Shown here one piece after another: positions 34,570 to 53,216 of a DNA stretch of 56,101 nucleotides. Source of the DNA: an uncultured Christensenella sp. (GTDB lineage: Bacteria; Bacillota; Clostridia; Christensenellales; UBA1242); NCBI GenBank assembly GCA_949300385.1, contig CASGDZ010000005.1, positions 1 to 56,101 on the forward strand, read 5' to 3'. The stretch's first letter is position 1. Every line of letters begins with the position of its first letter. The notes below the pieces were generated by a model. That model saw only the letters and a list, made by a program, of their open reading frames with translations, was not told the DNA's origin and searched no databases. A program made the translations under genes and the position numbers.

Positions 34570-34596
34570 AAAAACCGACTTTTGTCGGTATTTTTT
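34570..34596. terminator. Bidirectional terminator, Rho-like gene and ileS
   Basis: Hairpin ACCGAC/GTCGGT with loop TTTT and six-base A and T runs at the two sides. Confidence 0.88.
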
Positions 34597-37500
34597 ATCT
34601 TTTCATTTTTATTGTTATTTTTTCGTCAGCGATATCGATAGTTTGTTCAATTTCAGGGTTGTTGATTTTTATTATATCTTTAACCAACAATTCAGATTTA
34701 ATTTTGTCTGAAAATTTATTTAAAATTTCTTTTAAATCTTCGCCAGATGTTTCAAATTCGATATAAATTCTATCATCTACATTGAAATTTGCTTCTTTTC
34801 TCATAACTTGCGCAGAACGAATCAATTCACGAGATAGACCCTCAAGCATAAGTTCACGATCAATAGTTATGTCAAGCACAACCGTTATATCATTATCACT
34901 TGCAATAACATATTCTTGTTTAGGCTTTGTCGTTAAAACGAATAGCGAACTATCTAAGTTTTTGAATTCTCCAACATTGACCTTTCCAGATTTAAATTCT
35001 TTAACCATTTTGTCCATGTCGTCCTTAGTTGCGTCTAACAATAATTGTTTTACCTTTTGAACATTTGATTTTAAAACTGCACCTGCTTTTCTAAAATCCA
35101 GTGAAAGTAATTCATCATTGAATATTGAATTGTCATGTTCCATAATGACATTTTTTATATTTAATTCGCTTTCTATAACATCGAGATATAGATTAACAGC
35201 ATCCGCTACCAACTTGTTTCCGTTAATGTACATGGTTTTTAGCGGTTGTTTTACTTTGATTTGATTTTCATTTCGTAGTTTACTAGCCATAGTAAATATG
35301 TCGCGCACTATGTCTGTTTTCTCTACATAACCATTATCTTTAACTGAAAATTCACCTACATTATATCCGTTTAATGCTACGCTTAAAGTTGCATTTTTGT
35401 CCAATTCTCTAACAGCATTTTGCCATAAATATTCGCTTATAAATGGAACAATAGGGAACATAACCATGCAAATATTTTTAATTGCATAATGTAAGCAGAA
35501 ATAAGCGTTCATTGTGTCGTAATTGTTTTCACTTTTATAGAATCTACGCCTATTATTTCTAATATACCAATTTGTCAATTCGTCAACAAGGTTTTCAAAA
35601 TCTTTTGCAACTTTTCCAAACTCTTGCACTGAATAATTTTCTTTTGCGGATTTAGTAAATTCATTTACGCGGGTTATCAACCATTTATCCATGAAAGTCA
35701 TTTCATTTTCATTTGGGGTATAATTTGTTAAATCAGGTTTATCAATGTAAGCATAAGTATTTAAGAAAATATATGCGTTCCATAAGCCGAGCAATTTCTT
35801 TTTAACTTCGTCGCACGATTCACGACCAAATTTAACATCGCTTGTTAGTGGGGTTGCAACAAAATTATATCTAATAATATCTGCACCAATCTCTTTAAAT
35901 GCGTCATCAAGCGGAATATTGTTTGGACTTGATTTGGACAACTTTTTTCCGTCTTGTGCGAGCAACATTGGGGTAGTACCTATTCGCTTATAAGGCGCTT
36001 TACCTGTTAACACGACACTCATAACGAGTAGTGAATAGAACCATAATCGTATTTGTTCTTTTCCTTCGATTACGCATTCAATAGGGAAATTTTTATTAAA
36101 GAATTCTTTATCAGTAAAGTATTTTTTAGTGCTGAAAGGTGTAATACCAGCGTCAAGCCAAGCATCACCAACTTCCTTAATTCGCTCAACCTTGCTTCCG
36201 CAATGTGGACAAGTGATTTTAATTTTATCAATATATGGTCGATGAATGTGAGGCATAGCATCAACATCTTCTGAGTTAGAAAGTTTTTTAAGTTCATCTA
36301 ATGAGCCGACGACTGTCAATTTGCCACAATGTTGGCATTTATAGAAAGGAAGAGGTAAACCATAATATCTATTTCTACTAATTGACCAATCACCCATATT
36401 ATTTAACCAGTCAAGCATGCGCTTTTTCATGAAAGGCGGATTAAATTCAACATTGTCGATAGCAAAAATGAGTTCAGGGCGAATTTCGTCCATTTTTATA
36501 ACCCATTGAGAGATTAGTCGGTATACAAGTGGGCGCTTACATCTATGGCAGTGTGGGTAGCGGTGAGTATATTTATGAGTATAGTATACTTTTCCGCGTT
36601 CTTTTAGCACTTCAAATATAAAATCTCTAGTTTCATCACTATTAGCATTTTTACCAGCCAAAACACCGAAATTAGGATAGAATAAACCTGCTTCATCTAT
36701 CGGTATTATGTTTTTAAGTCCGATTGATTTACCTAAATCATAGTCACTTTCACCGCAACCAGGAGCAATATGAACAGCGCCAGCACCTTCAGTTGCGTCC
36801 ACTTGATCCCATGCCACGATTTTATGTTCGAATTGCTGTTCGTCAAGTTCAGGGAAGCATGTCTCATAAGTTAGTCCAACAAGTTCGCTACCTTTAATGG
36901 TCTTTATAACATGGTCAACATCGTCTTTTAAAACTTTGATTAAATTTGACATAATAATTAAATTTCTATCGCTAGATTTAATTTTTACAATACTATATTC
37001 AAATTCAGGATTAACGGCAACTGCAACATTCGCGCATAGAGTCCAAGGAGTAGTCGTCCATACTAATATATCATTATTTGTACTTTTAATAGGGCATTTA
37101 AAGAATATTGCTTGGCAAGTATCGTCGCGATATACATCGTCGCCAGACATATCATTCTCTGCAATGCTAGTGCCACAACGCGTACACCATGGAGTAGGGC
37201 GGTATGATTGTTGAATCCAGCCCTTTTCATGACATTTCTTTAAAAAATACCAAATTGCAGTAATGTTGCTATCGCTATTTGTGTAATAACTATCATCCCA
37301 ATTCATCCATTGACCAAGGCGTATAGAAGATAGCGTTTGAGAAGCAGAATACTTTTTAACAGAATCCATACACGCTTGGACAAACTTGTCTATTCCATAT
37401 CGTTCAATATCTTTTTTACTATCTAGACCTAAAGCTTCTTCAACCTTTTTCTCAACGGGCAGTCCGTGTGCGTCAAAGCCGTTTTGATAGTGTTGGTCAT

Positions 37501-37729
37501 AACCACAAAGTGCTTCAAACTTAATCATAGCATCTTTAAAAGTTCTATTATATGCGTGGTGAAGTCCCATATTATAGTTTGCAGTAATTGGGCCATCAAG
37601 AGTAGCAAAATACTTACCCGTCTTTTTGTTTTTCTCCTTTAATTTATCGAATATTGAATTGTCTTGCCAAAATTTCAATATTCCTTCTTCCATTTTCACA
37701 TAGTCAAGATTGCCTTGTTCTTTTTTCAT
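34595..37729 (-). CDS. ileS: Isoleucine--tRNA ligase
   Basis: Class I synthetase charging tRNA-Ile with isoleucine. 1044 aa, the long type. The HIGH-type motif is MGLHHAYNRTF in DGPITANYNMGLHHAYNRTF. The editing domain runs roughly from residue 200 to 400, with zinc-like CxxC pairs flanking it (CTRC near 180, CHRC near 395, and CQHC with CPHC near 465-505). KMSKS appears as KLSKS in DGKKLSKSSPNN, followed by the anticodon-binding helical domain and a C-terminal beta extension. AAGGAG precedes the ATG. A leader ORF and attenuator lie directly upstream. The stop is next to a shared terminator. Confidence 0.96.
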   Translation of the reverse strand: MKKEQGNLDYVKMEEGILKFWQDNSIFDKLKEKNKKTGKYFATLDGPITANYNMGLHHAYNRTFKDAMIKFEALCGYDQHYQNGFDAHGLPVEKKVEEALGLDSKKDIERYGIDKFVQACMDSVKKYSASQTLSSIRLGQWMNWDDSYYTNSDSNITAIWYFLKKCHEKGWIQQSYRPTPWCTRCGTSIAENDMSGDDVYRDDTCQAIFFKCPIKSTNNDILVWTTTPWTLCANVAVAVNPEFEYSIVKIKSSDRNLIIMSNLIKVLKDDVDHVIKTIKGSELVGLTYETCFPELDEQQFEHKIVAWDQVDATEGAGAVHIAPGCGESDYDLGKSIGLKNIIPIDEAGLFYPNFGVLAGKNANSDETRDFIFEVLKERGKVYYTHKYTHRYPHCHRCKRPLVYRLISQWVIKMDEIRPELIFAIDNVEFNPPFMKKRMLDWLNNMGDWSISRNRYYGLPLPFYKCQHCGKLTVVGSLDELKKLSNSEDVDAMPHIHRPYIDKIKITCPHCGSKVERIKEVGDAWLDAGITPFSTKKYFTDKEFFNKNFPIECVIEGKEQIRLWFYSLLVMSVVLTGKAPYKRIGTTPMLLAQDGKKLSKSSPNNIPLDDAFKEIGADIIRYNFVATPLTSDVKFGRESCDEVKKKLLGLWNAYIFLNTYAYIDKPDLTNYTPNENEMTFMDKWLITRVNEFTKSAKENYSVQEFGKVAKDFENLVDELTNWYIRNNRRRFYKSENNYDTMNAYFCLHYAIKNICMVMFPIVPFISEYLWQNAVRELDKNATLSVALNGYNVGEFSVKDNGYVEKTDIVRDIFTMASKLRNENQIKVKQPLKTMYINGNKLVADAVNLYLDVIESELNIKNVIMEHDNSIFNDELLSLDFRKAGAVLKSNVQKVKQLLLDATKDDMDKMVKEFKSGKVNVGEFKNLDSSLFVLTTKPKQEYVIASDNDITVVLDITIDRELMLEGLSRELIRSAQVMRKEANFNVDDRIYIEFETSGEDLKEILNKFSDKIKSELLVKDIIKINNPEIEQTIDIADEKITIKMKR

Positions 37730-37750
37730 AATATCTCCTTGTTACAATTT

Positions 37751-37776
37751 AAAAAATGCCAGCGCTTGCTGGTCAT
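37751..37776 (-). terminator. ileS leader attenuator (intrinsic terminator before the Shine-Dalgarno)
   Basis: On the minus strand an 8-bp hairpin with one bulged A: ATG-A-CCAGC / GCTGG-CAT, loop AAGC, then six T (37756-37751). It ends 21 nt before the ileS ATG, so it can only serve to stop transcription ahead of ileS. Its 5' arm (37771-37766 CAGCAA) also pairs with TTGCTG at 37790-37785, the alternative antiterminator. Confidence 0.85.
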
Positions 37777-37799
37777 GATTATCACAGCAAAACGCACAC

Positions 37800-37850
37800 C
37801 TATAATATAGATGTAATTATTTTGCCATTGATAATAATTGTATTTTTCAT
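37800..37850 (-). CDS. ileS leader peptide (16 aa, six Ile)
   Basis: MKNTIIINGKIITSIL: Ile at positions 5, 6, 7, 11, 12 and 15, encoded by ATT, ATT, ATC, ATA, ATT and ATA. The ATG lies 6 nt after TAATAT of a TTGACA-17-TAATAT promoter, with no Shine-Dalgarno, so the transcript is probably leaderless. The stop codon TAG lies 9 nt before the antiterminator strand, so a ribosome finishing the peptide would cover that strand and let the terminator form; a ribosome held at the Ile codons would cover the competing strand (37825-37820) instead. Composition, position and RNA pairings together make a ribosome-mediated attenuator. It has not been tested. Confidence 0.85.
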   Translation of the reverse strand: MKNTIIINGKIITSIL

Positions 37851-37856
37851 GTTCTT

Positions 37857-37885
37857 ATATTATCAAAAACGAATAGAATTGTCAA
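37857..37885 (-). promoter_or_regulatory. ileS leader promoter
   Basis: Minus strand TTGACA (37885-37880), 17 bp, TAATAT (37862-37857); the predicted start is at the leader-peptide ATG. Confidence 0.85.
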
Positions 37886-37922
37886 ATAAATTATCTATTC
37901 AAAAACTAATCTAATTAAAAAA

Positions 37923-37991
37923 TTAAAATTTAATAGGTAGAAACATCCACCCAAGCATAACTATTAAAAGCACAAATTGATATACTGTCAT
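37923..37991 (-). CDS. 22-codon hydrophobic micro-ORF, leaderless
   Basis: A very small ORF encoding a single probable membrane helix: MTVYQFVLLIVMLGW then MFLPIKF. It starts 6 nt after TAAAAT of a consensus promoter and has no Shine-Dalgarno, the same geometry as other leaderless genes here. No terminator separates it from the ileS leader, so read-through into ileS is possible. It could be a small membrane protein, a type I toxin-like peptide, or a second leader peptide. The ORF is certain; that it is a gene is inferred from promoter position. Confidence 0.55.
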   Translation of the reverse strand: MTVYQFVLLIVMLGWMFLPIKF

Positions 37992-37997
37992 GCAAGT

Positions 37998-38026
37998 ATT
38001 TTATATCTAATTTCTTGTTTTGTCAA
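37998..38026 (-). promoter_or_regulatory. Promoter of the micro-ORF
   Basis: Minus strand TTGACA (38026-38021), 17 bp, TAAAAT (38003-37998), 6 nt, ATG. Confidence 0.8.
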
Positions 38027-38055
38027 TATAGGAAATTTGATAAATTTAAAATTTA

Positions 38056-38721
38056 TTATAACTTCCAATCAATTTCTTTTATACCTTGCTCAGACAAAAA
38101 TTTATTGCATTTAGAGAAGTGTTTGCAACCAAAGAAACCATTTCGTGCAGAGAACGGGCTAGGGTGGGCAGATTGTAAAACTAAATGATTAGGGTTATTT
38201 AATAGTGGAATGAATTGCTTAGCGTGATTACCCCACAGCATAAAGACGATAGGTTGATTTAATGTGTTTAAAATTTTAATAATTTCGCGTGTAAAGGTGT
38301 GCCATAATTCGTTTGAATGACTTGCAGGTTGATGCTCAATAACTGTCAAACTCGTGTTTAGAAGAAGTACACCTTGCTCTGCCCATGAAGTCAAATCAGT
38401 ATTTCCACTCATTTTTATACCTAAATCACTTTCTATTTCTTTAAAGATATTTTTTAGGCTAGGTTGAGGCGTCCCATTATGACAACTAAACGCTAGTCCG
38501 TCCGCCTGGCCATAAACATGGTAAGGATCTTGACCGACTATAACAACTTTGACTTTATCTATAGGCACTAAATTGAGCGCATTAAAAACTTTTTCTTTAG
38601 GCGGGAAAATAACTTTGCTATTGTACTCGTTTTCTAACCAACTAAATAATTCGCGTTTATAGTTGATATCGAAATGCGATTTTAGTGCTTCACTCCAATT
38701 TTCAGATAATACATAATTCAT
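38056..38721 (-). CDS. ung: Uracil-DNA glycosylase, family 1
   Basis: Removes uracil from DNA. 221 aa with the catalytic water-activating motif VVIVGQDPYHVYGQADGLAFS, the WAEQGVLLLNTSLTV segment and the DNA-intercalation loop HPSPFSARNGFFGCKHFSKCN. The start at 38721 (NYVLSENWSEAL) agrees with the family; a 69-nt upstream in-frame extension overlaps the promoter. No Shine-Dalgarno; the -10 box is 6 nt before the ATG. Confidence 0.96.
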   Translation of the reverse strand: MNYVLSENWSEALKSHFDINYKRELFSWLENEYNSKVIFPPKEKVFNALNLVPIDKVKVVIVGQDPYHVYGQADGLAFSCHNGTPQPSLKNIFKEIESDLGIKMSGNTDLTSWAEQGVLLLNTSLTVIEHQPASHSNELWHTFTREIIKILNTLNQPIVFMLWGNHAKQFIPLLNNPNHLVLQSAHPSPFSARNGFFGCKHFSKCNKFLSEQGIKEIDWKL

Positions 38722-49858: not shown

Positions 49859-50068
49859 TACAATGCAACTACCGCGGGGAAACAATAAATTTACTTGCGA
49901 GTTGCCTGTATAATAGTAACTTTTGTTACTTAAATTATACAGATTGAGAACAATGACAACTGCATATTTTGATAAAATACAAATACGAGAAGTAATTGCA
50001 CTTAGCAATTTATTTCAATTTCATTTGTAATTTTGCCAAAGAACATTAATCAAAGGAACAAAAAGACG
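49859..50068 (+). other. Pre-23S leader with processing stem
   Basis: The leader begins with a GCAACT/AGTTGC hairpin (49865-49905), then a 15-bp hairpin CTGTATAAT AGTAAC/GTTACT TAA ATTATACAG (49906-49942). Bases 49948-49970 are perfectly complementary over 23 nt to 53044-53066 beyond the 23S 3' end, and AATTTTGCC lower down pairs with GGCAAAATT at 53022-53030, together forming the processing stalk of precursor 23S rRNA. Confidence 0.8.
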
Positions 50069-52993
<2,925 letters not shown>

Positions 52994-53098
52994 ACCTTCC
53001 TTTTGAGAAATGAATTCTTTAAGGCAAAATTATATCGTATTAAAAAATATGCAGTTGTCATTGTTCTAAACTAACGATAGTTAGTGTTCAATGAACCA

Positions 53099-53216
53099 TG
53101 ATGGTGATTATTGCTGAGAGGTTCCACTTGTTCCCATTCCGAACACAAAAGTTAAGCTCTCACGCGTCGACGATATTTGGCTGGAGACGGCCCGAGAAAA
53201 TAGATCGTTGCCATCA
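53099..53216 (+). rRNA. 5S ribosomal RNA
   Basis: About 118 nt with GATGG/CCATC closing helix, the conserved CCATTCCGAACACAAAAGTTAAG (loop B and helix III area) and the CGTTGCCATC 3' end. It follows 23S by ~105 bp in the same transcript. End positions are accurate to one or two bases. Confidence 0.95.

Follow-up and report, generated by a model that had tools for sequence, protein, structure and literature searches.

The gene for isoleucyl-tRNA synthetase, ileS, occupies positions 34595..37729 on the minus strand of the window (the whole 56,101-nucleotide stretch of DNA analysed here). Its ORF encodes a protein of 1044 aa, which matched the NCBIfam ileS model TIGR00392 with 719 bits (cut-off 621.4), and the IleS search recovered homologues in all 34 genomes of the host genus, presumably Onthoplasma. 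All the features of the upstream region described here lie on the same strand. The consensus scan predicted a sigma-70-type promoter at 37857..37885, composed of TTGACA (37885-37880), a 17-base spacer and TAATAT (37862-37857), with similar spacing in relatives. Six bases past the -10 box, at 37850, lies the ATG of a short ORF (37800..37850, including the stop codon TAG at 37802-37800), which is predicted to be leaderless and encodes the peptide MKNTIIINGKIITSIL. Six of its 16 sense codons (codons 5-7, 11, 12 and 15) specify isoleucine. Region 1 (37819..37835; leader bases 16-32, counted from the ATG) extends from Ile codons 6-7 through GGCAAAA, and a predicted hairpin around the stop codon (37795..37815) pairs leader bases 36-44 with 48-56. 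Region 2, GCGTTTTGCTG with its flank (37778..37795; leader bases 56-73), has two alternative partners in the predicted folds, namely region 1 and region 3, CAGCAAGCGC (37762..37771); the latter has region 2 as its antiterminator partner or pairs, partly, with region 4. Regions 3 and 4 form an intrinsic terminator at 37751..37776, with the sequence (ATG)A CCAGC-AAGC-GCTGG (CAT) followed by six T, which was recognised by the terminator scan and by folding. The six-T tail ends 21 bases before the ATG of ileS (37729), and the motif AAGGAG at 37735..37740 is the likely ileS Shine-Dalgarno site.

An earlier note, made from the sequence alone, had placed the promoter, leader ORF, stop codon, terminator, spacings and pairing coordinates, and all of these elements were directly observed where it had put them. 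The pairings that it listed were also right, namely GCAAAA (leader bases 26-31, 37825-37820) with TTTTGC (59-64), TTGCTG (61-66) with CAGCAA (80-85), and CCAGC with GCTGG (79-92). The helices were understated in that description. In the predicted fold of the free RNA, leader bases 16-32 were paired with 58-73, so that Ile codons 6 and 7 lie inside the 1:2 helix; the 2:3 pairing was extended by GCG (56-58) with CGC (87-89), and the stop-codon hairpin (36-44 with 48-56) was likewise underrated. Two terminator-like sites were observed at 37600-38100 versus 0.1 expected, the second one being weak. Promoter-like sites in the same interval numbered six versus 4.0 expected, and the promoter match alone thus proves little. 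Among the 573 ATG ORFs of 10-25 codons in the window (nested starts counted), three, including the leader ORF, contained III and at least 30% Ile.

A second short promoter-proximal ORF, MTVYQFVLLIVMLGWMFLPIKF, lies farther upstream on the minus strand (37921..37989) and starts six bases past its own promoter-like match (38026-37998). Similar ORFs were found upstream in loci L004 and L019, where the counterparts end in FLPIKF and FLPVKF. As the end of MTVYQFVLLIVMLGWMFLPIKF resembles the ..ILPIKL of leaders from other lineages, this ORF is possibly the remnant of an older, decayed ileS leader, or it may encode a small membrane protein. Elsewhere in the window, Rfam matches at 50068-53216 corresponded to 23S and 5S rRNA genes; no 16S match was obtained in the window, which indicates that the 16S gene is not directly upstream.

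The strongest evidence that the putative ileS leader is real is its conservation in relatives. In 34/34 genus genomes, ileS was preceded by a promoter-like match, a short ORF rich in Ile and a T-tailed hairpin; among the short ORFs located behind a promoter-like match within 900 bases, a script chose the one richest in Ile as the leader. The earlier note had named conserved Ile codons and a conserved terminator as support to be sought in related genomes, and both were kept, with adjacent Ile residues in 33/34 leaders and the terminator, by sequence, in 34/34. The leaders contained on average 38.5% Ile, versus 10.2% in the 573 short ORFs of the window; 28 of the 34 reached at least 30% Ile and 24 contained III. 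The weakest leader was that of G008, with three scattered Ile residues, none of them adjacent. The layout varied in two genomes: in G005, approximately 150 bases were inserted between the leader stop codon and region 2, and in G022 (L026) a gene was located between the attenuator and ileS, the leader being approximately 709 bases upstream of ileS, where the switch would control a two-gene unit.

A model of the RNA (R1) was built from 31 genus sequences, which it finds by construction. Apart from these, it gave no strong match in the genus and, with stricter filters, none in the other 294 of 297 genomes of the order. The possibility that the same RNA controls many genes was rejected, as the R1 matches beyond ileS in the genus were all weak (E 8e-4 and above); some of them led to the leuS leaders described below. 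Six weak R1 matches in other families (E 0.0014 to 0.0082) had the look of plain terminator-like sites lacking an Ile leader and were discarded. In the window's genome, the region preceding the valS-like gene (locus L003, 1000-1490) was also read; it contains a promoter-like site and a T-tailed hairpin approximately 200 bases before that gene, and no Ile- or Val-run leader was seen in it.

The conservation of the three pairings was assessed across four sequence types: A (20 genomes, mostly GCGTTTTGCTG), B (six genomes, GCGATTTGCT), C (five genomes, TTTTGATGC) and D (three genomes forming one clade in the enzyme tree, CGCTATATG with the terminator arm CATATAGCG). Type D kept all three pairings despite its unrelated sequence. 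When regions were exchanged among all 34 genomes, the duplex energies for a genome's own partners versus partners from other groups were -13.8 versus -9.7 kcal/mol for 2:3, -12.1 versus -8.4 kcal/mol for 3:4 and -13.2 versus -9.8 kcal/mol for 1:2, values reached in 0/5000 permutations for each pairing, the permutations ignoring relatedness. Swaps within the same group gave -14.1 (2:3), -10.8 (3:4) and -11.4 (1:2); since they paired as well as the own partners for 2:3, the test rests on about four sequence types rather than on 34 independent cases. The protecting 1:2 pairing held in the window and overall in the swap test, and group C was the exception (-7.0 own versus -9.3 swapped). The 2:3 pairing was better than that of a shuffled region 2 (z under -1.64) in 29/34 genomes, the exceptions being four members of group C and G030. 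In the alignment of 31 genomes (A1, which comprises all but the group D genomes G005, G006 and G009), 93.1% of cells were paired for 3:4 and 91.0% for 2:3, versus at most 56% and 78%, respectively, for slid helices. Column covariation in A1 was weak, the scores being reached by 119/500 shuffles for 2:3 and by 23/500 for 3:4, with no two-sided change in the latter; regions 2, 3 and 4 are mutually constrained and hardly vary within a type. The stop-codon hairpin was paired in 58% of cells versus 64% when slid by one column, and its equivalents in relatives were seen by eye. The covariation anticipated in the earlier note was borne out as concerted differences of the three pairings between sequence types, and weakly at the level of alignment columns.

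The 135 bases before ileS very probably constitute a ribosome-mediated, predicted leaderless transcription attenuator sensing the charging of Ile tRNA, and the interpretation of the earlier note is supported. The first transcribed base would be the A of the leader ATG or one close to it, and the 5' end of the RNA would be where a 70S ribosome loads; we infer both from the six-base spacing, and the ribosome stall and termination from the modelled folds. When charged Ile tRNA is scarce, the ribosome would stall on the Ile codons and ileS would be transcribed: a ribosome at Ile codon 6, 7, 11, 12 or 15 is modelled to cover region 1 partly or wholly, which would leave region 2 free for region 3 and prevent formation of the terminator. 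With ample charged tRNA, translation would continue to the stop codon, where the ribosome would mask the 5' half of region 2 until it left; after its release, region 1 would capture region 2, and regions 3 and 4 would form the terminator. The 1:2 pairing would also lead to termination if the leader were not translated. Ribosome blocking is positional, and stalls at neighbouring codons would act alike.

The folding model, in which the ribosome footprint extended to 14 bases past the first base of the P site, was applied to all 34 genomes. In the window, P(terminator) was 0.91 in the free RNA and 0.83 with a ribosome at the stop codon. The claim that stalling on Ile disarms the terminator was reproduced for Ile codons 6-15 (0.00-0.08) and failed for codon 5 (0.93); for codon 11, the energies of the best terminator fold and the best antiterminator fold were nearly equal (-14.7 and -14.4). 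Before region 4 is made, 2:3 pairing was predicted at Ile stalls in 34/34 genomes, at the stop codon in 34/34 (0.52 or more) and in the free RNA in 24/34, hence this stage does not discriminate a stall from a stop. With region 4 present, P(terminator) exceeded 0.5 at the stop codon in 30/34 genomes (not G002, G015, G027 and G030) and in the free RNA in 32/34 (not G005 and G026), and fell below 0.5 at some Ile codon in 20/34, or in 21/34 when the alternative hairpin set was used. The stop codon is farther from region 2 in G002, G015 and group B, which suggests that termination there would proceed through release of the ribosome and then 1:2 pairing, instead of ribosome cover. The full equilibrium switch (off when stalled, on at the stop codon, on in the free RNA) was predicted in 14/34 genomes, including that of the window, and the remaining genomes would need kinetics. 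A kinetic dependence is normal for attenuators.

It is improbable that the hairpin is a constitutive terminator, or that it ends a very small transcript lacking any regulatory role, and that ileS is reached by read-through or has another promoter. The prediction that the terminator is favoured at equilibrium despite a stalled ribosome in 14/34 genomes would suit such an arrangement, which would nevertheless have no need to keep the Ile codons and the antiterminator strand; moreover, from one sequence type to the next, this alternative strand and the terminator arm change in concert, a matched difference that was observed directly.

The codon usage of the leaders is consistent with the attenuator reading for the main type of peptide. 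In the 12 stop-aligned main-type leaders, codon differences involving Ile were synonymous in 157 of 306 pairs, versus 50 of 423 for the others, and the peptide, including that of the window, varied freely except for its Ile runs. In ten LPIK-type leaders, the corresponding figures were 78 of 266 and 104 of 360, with no excess, which suggests that the whole peptide, or the RNA beneath it, is constrained there; the two sets comprise 12 and 10 of the 34 leaders, and pairs of related genomes are not independent. The LPIK-like C-terminus was kept as a peptide in G003, G004, G007, G021, G022, G024, G026, G029, G032 and G033, and its conservation exceeds the obvious need of the stop-codon hairpin.

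Leu-rich leaders were found before leuS in 15/34 genus genomes (loci L217-L223, L228, L230, L235, L238, L244, L246, L204 and L252), the window's own genome having none. The leuS upstream regions were read in 32/34 genomes; G026 and G033 were searched with a second model (R2) alone. This model was built from 14 leuS leaders, and the leader of G001 was then found with it and read. The peptides, e.g., MKINSLALLLR and MLNKLLALLL, mostly start six bases past the -10 box, and the ORF is followed by GGTTGTGC, a hairpin and the terminator GACAGC/GCTGTC. LLL was present in 12 of the 14 leaders (not in G012 and G032). In G020, a three-way change was seen by eye, GACGGC/GCCGTC and GTGCC together replacing GACAGC/GCTGTC and GTGCTG. 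Model R2 weakly matched 12 ileS attenuators (E 1.8e-4 to 0.08), which made up 12 of its 17 non-leuS rows and suggest common descent of the two devices; the leuS attenuators are likely paralogous with the ileS device. Two weak R2 matches outside the genus were set aside.

The possibility that the leader is an arrest peptide, i.e., that its hydrophobic nascent chain stalls the ribosome in response to a small molecule or a membrane state and the same pairings read that stall, has two observations in its favour: the LPIK type keeps a hydrophobic C-terminal end, ..LPIK(L/M/R), ahead of the stop codon in several lineages, and differences at its Ile codons are synonymous no more frequently than those at the others. 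We consider it decidedly improbable, as the main-type peptide is free to vary outside the Ile runs and the Leu runs of the leuS leader match its enzyme.

The spacing between the -10 box and the ATG, from which a leaderless start is predicted, was six bases in 26/34 and 6-8 bases in 32/34 genus genomes. The promoter-ATG pattern occurred at 37 sites in the window's genome, versus eight for a reversed control pattern. When 25 of the 37 sites were examined (of the other 12, five had been excluded by eye and seven lacked a locus), 14 were found to start ORFs of 84 aa or more, which include those we take to encode LepA, RecF, EngB/YsxC and endonuclease III. Leaderless starts thus look ordinary in this genome, judging from the sequence pattern. 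Leaderless loading would spare a Shine-Dalgarno site and fit a complete attenuator into approximately 100 bases.

The Rfam T-box model (RF00230) did not match anywhere in the window, nor next to ileS in the genus genomes, in agreement with the earlier statement that a T-box is absent. Matches elsewhere were present in 34/34 genus genomes, several of them beside genes taken for valS. Control of ileS by a T-box or other riboswitch, with the short ORF being incidental, was already disfavoured and appears extremely improbable: matches at ileS in other genera of the family and elsewhere in 34/34 genus genomes (above the curated cut-off in 5/34) speak for it, while no match lies at ileS in the genus, no stem I with an Ile specifier was found upstream, the approximately 100 bases from promoter to terminator are shorter than the 219-position model, and the leader ORF keeps its Ile codons.

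Outside the genus, T-box matches were observed at the same place: 50 stretches upstream of ileS were taken from other genera of the family, and 16 of them matched, as did six outgroup loci that partly repeat the 50; all of these matches were below the Rfam cut-off, but in place. The pattern search revealed no Ile leader in these 50 stretches, which represent 50 of the 86 family genomes with an ileS match and of which three were shorter than 210 bases. We infer that an ancestral ileS T-box was replaced by the leader-peptide attenuator in the genus; other histories are possible because the enzyme genes appear to have moved. The IleS of G012 was 33% identical to that of the window, and those of G003, G004 and G008 were 56-57% identical, while the leaders of these genomes are of type A. 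The identity of the upstream neighbour ung, compared for two of these four genomes, was 76.9% in G004 and 75.6% in G008, within the genus range of 66.5-83.3%. In a tree of 26 of the 34 genus enzymes and seven outgroups, which carries a long-branch warning and is not a species tree, L017 was placed within the genus radiation and G003, G004 and G008 outside it; the T-box match of L017 was weak (E 1.4e-4). We read the tree placements and the ung comparison as gene exchange, in which the leader seems to have been retained and the IleS enzyme replaced, likely on two occasions. At L161 (G012), L068 (G008) and L069 (G004), IleS was apparently replaced in place and the attenuator retained. The LeuS enzymes of G003 and G004 were 50% and 61% identical to that of G013, and the leuS leader was kept in both genomes.

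Leader-peptide attenuators are well known from proteobacterial trp, his, leu, ilv and pheST. The ileS leader resembles them in its run of regulatory codons, a stop codon near region 2, the 1:2, 2:3 and 3:4 pairings and the intrinsic terminator, and differs from them in being predicted to be leaderless, in its target ileS and in its lineage, Christensenellales, in which T-box matches occur at the ileS of other genera of the family. Many T-box leaders act by terminator read-through. The ileS T-box (RF00230) serves the same gene and the same physiological signal; unlike the proposed attenuator, it senses uncharged tRNA directly, through a longer structured RNA and with no translation.

The earlier note had called an attenuator on a start-codon-first mRNA unusual; this holds, although the arrangement has a precedent in mycobacteria, for which leaderless poly-Cys ORF attenuators have been described (Canestrari et al. 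2020, as reported in the review PMC9031893). Like the ileS leader, these are leaderless short ORFs that precede the genes under control and contain consecutive codons for the amino acid being sensed, and they differ in amino acid, target and phylum. Candidate cys leaders of Mycobacterium are reported in PMC1262725 as lacking obvious terminators, in contrast to the conserved intrinsic terminator of the ileS leader. The same source lists candidate attenuators for trpS2 and leuS of Streptomyces avermitilis, which likewise place a leader-peptide attenuator before a synthetase gene outside proteobacteria; that organism belongs to Actinobacteria, and its ileS has T-boxes predicted there to act on translation. 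The ilv-leu operon of Staphylococcus aureus has a Leu-rich attenuator (PMC5794164), in which a leader peptide attenuates genes for branched-chain amino acids within Bacillota; its target is a biosynthetic operon and not a synthetase, and S. aureus ileS is mentioned in that paper as having a characterised T-box leader. The principle is hence that of a classical leader-peptide attenuator, and leaderless attenuators are already known from mycobacteria. Among the open-licence PMC papers searched, no ileS leader-peptide attenuator and no leaderless synthetase attenuator was described. As far as the searches show, the target ileS, the lineage, the displacement of a T-box and the persistence over exchanged enzymes are new within that literature.

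Onthoplasma, a genus of gut bacteria, has been placed in the family UBA1242 of Christensenellales and described as having reduced genomes in which amino acid pathways are missing (PMC12306168); where amino acids are not synthesised, the synthetase itself would be a sensible point of control. A broader history, which in our judgement is about evenly poised between right and wrong, is that in Onthoplasma a small paralogous family of leaderless attenuators displaced T-box control of ileS, also controls leuS, has diversified through duplication and changes of codons (Ile or Leu runs) and outlives synthetases swapped by horizontal transfer, and that, because initiation is leaderless, it may read the pool of 70S ribosomes besides tRNA charging. 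If true, this would be a natural example in which one gene, with its signal unchanged, passed from one RNA logic to another, direct tRNA sensing by a T-box giving way to charging read through the translating ribosome. The leuS version suggests a way in which such switches may be duplicated and adapted to a different amino acid; if leaders persist through exchanges of the enzyme, the regulatory leader would be the more stable element of the locus, compared with the coding sequence that it controls.
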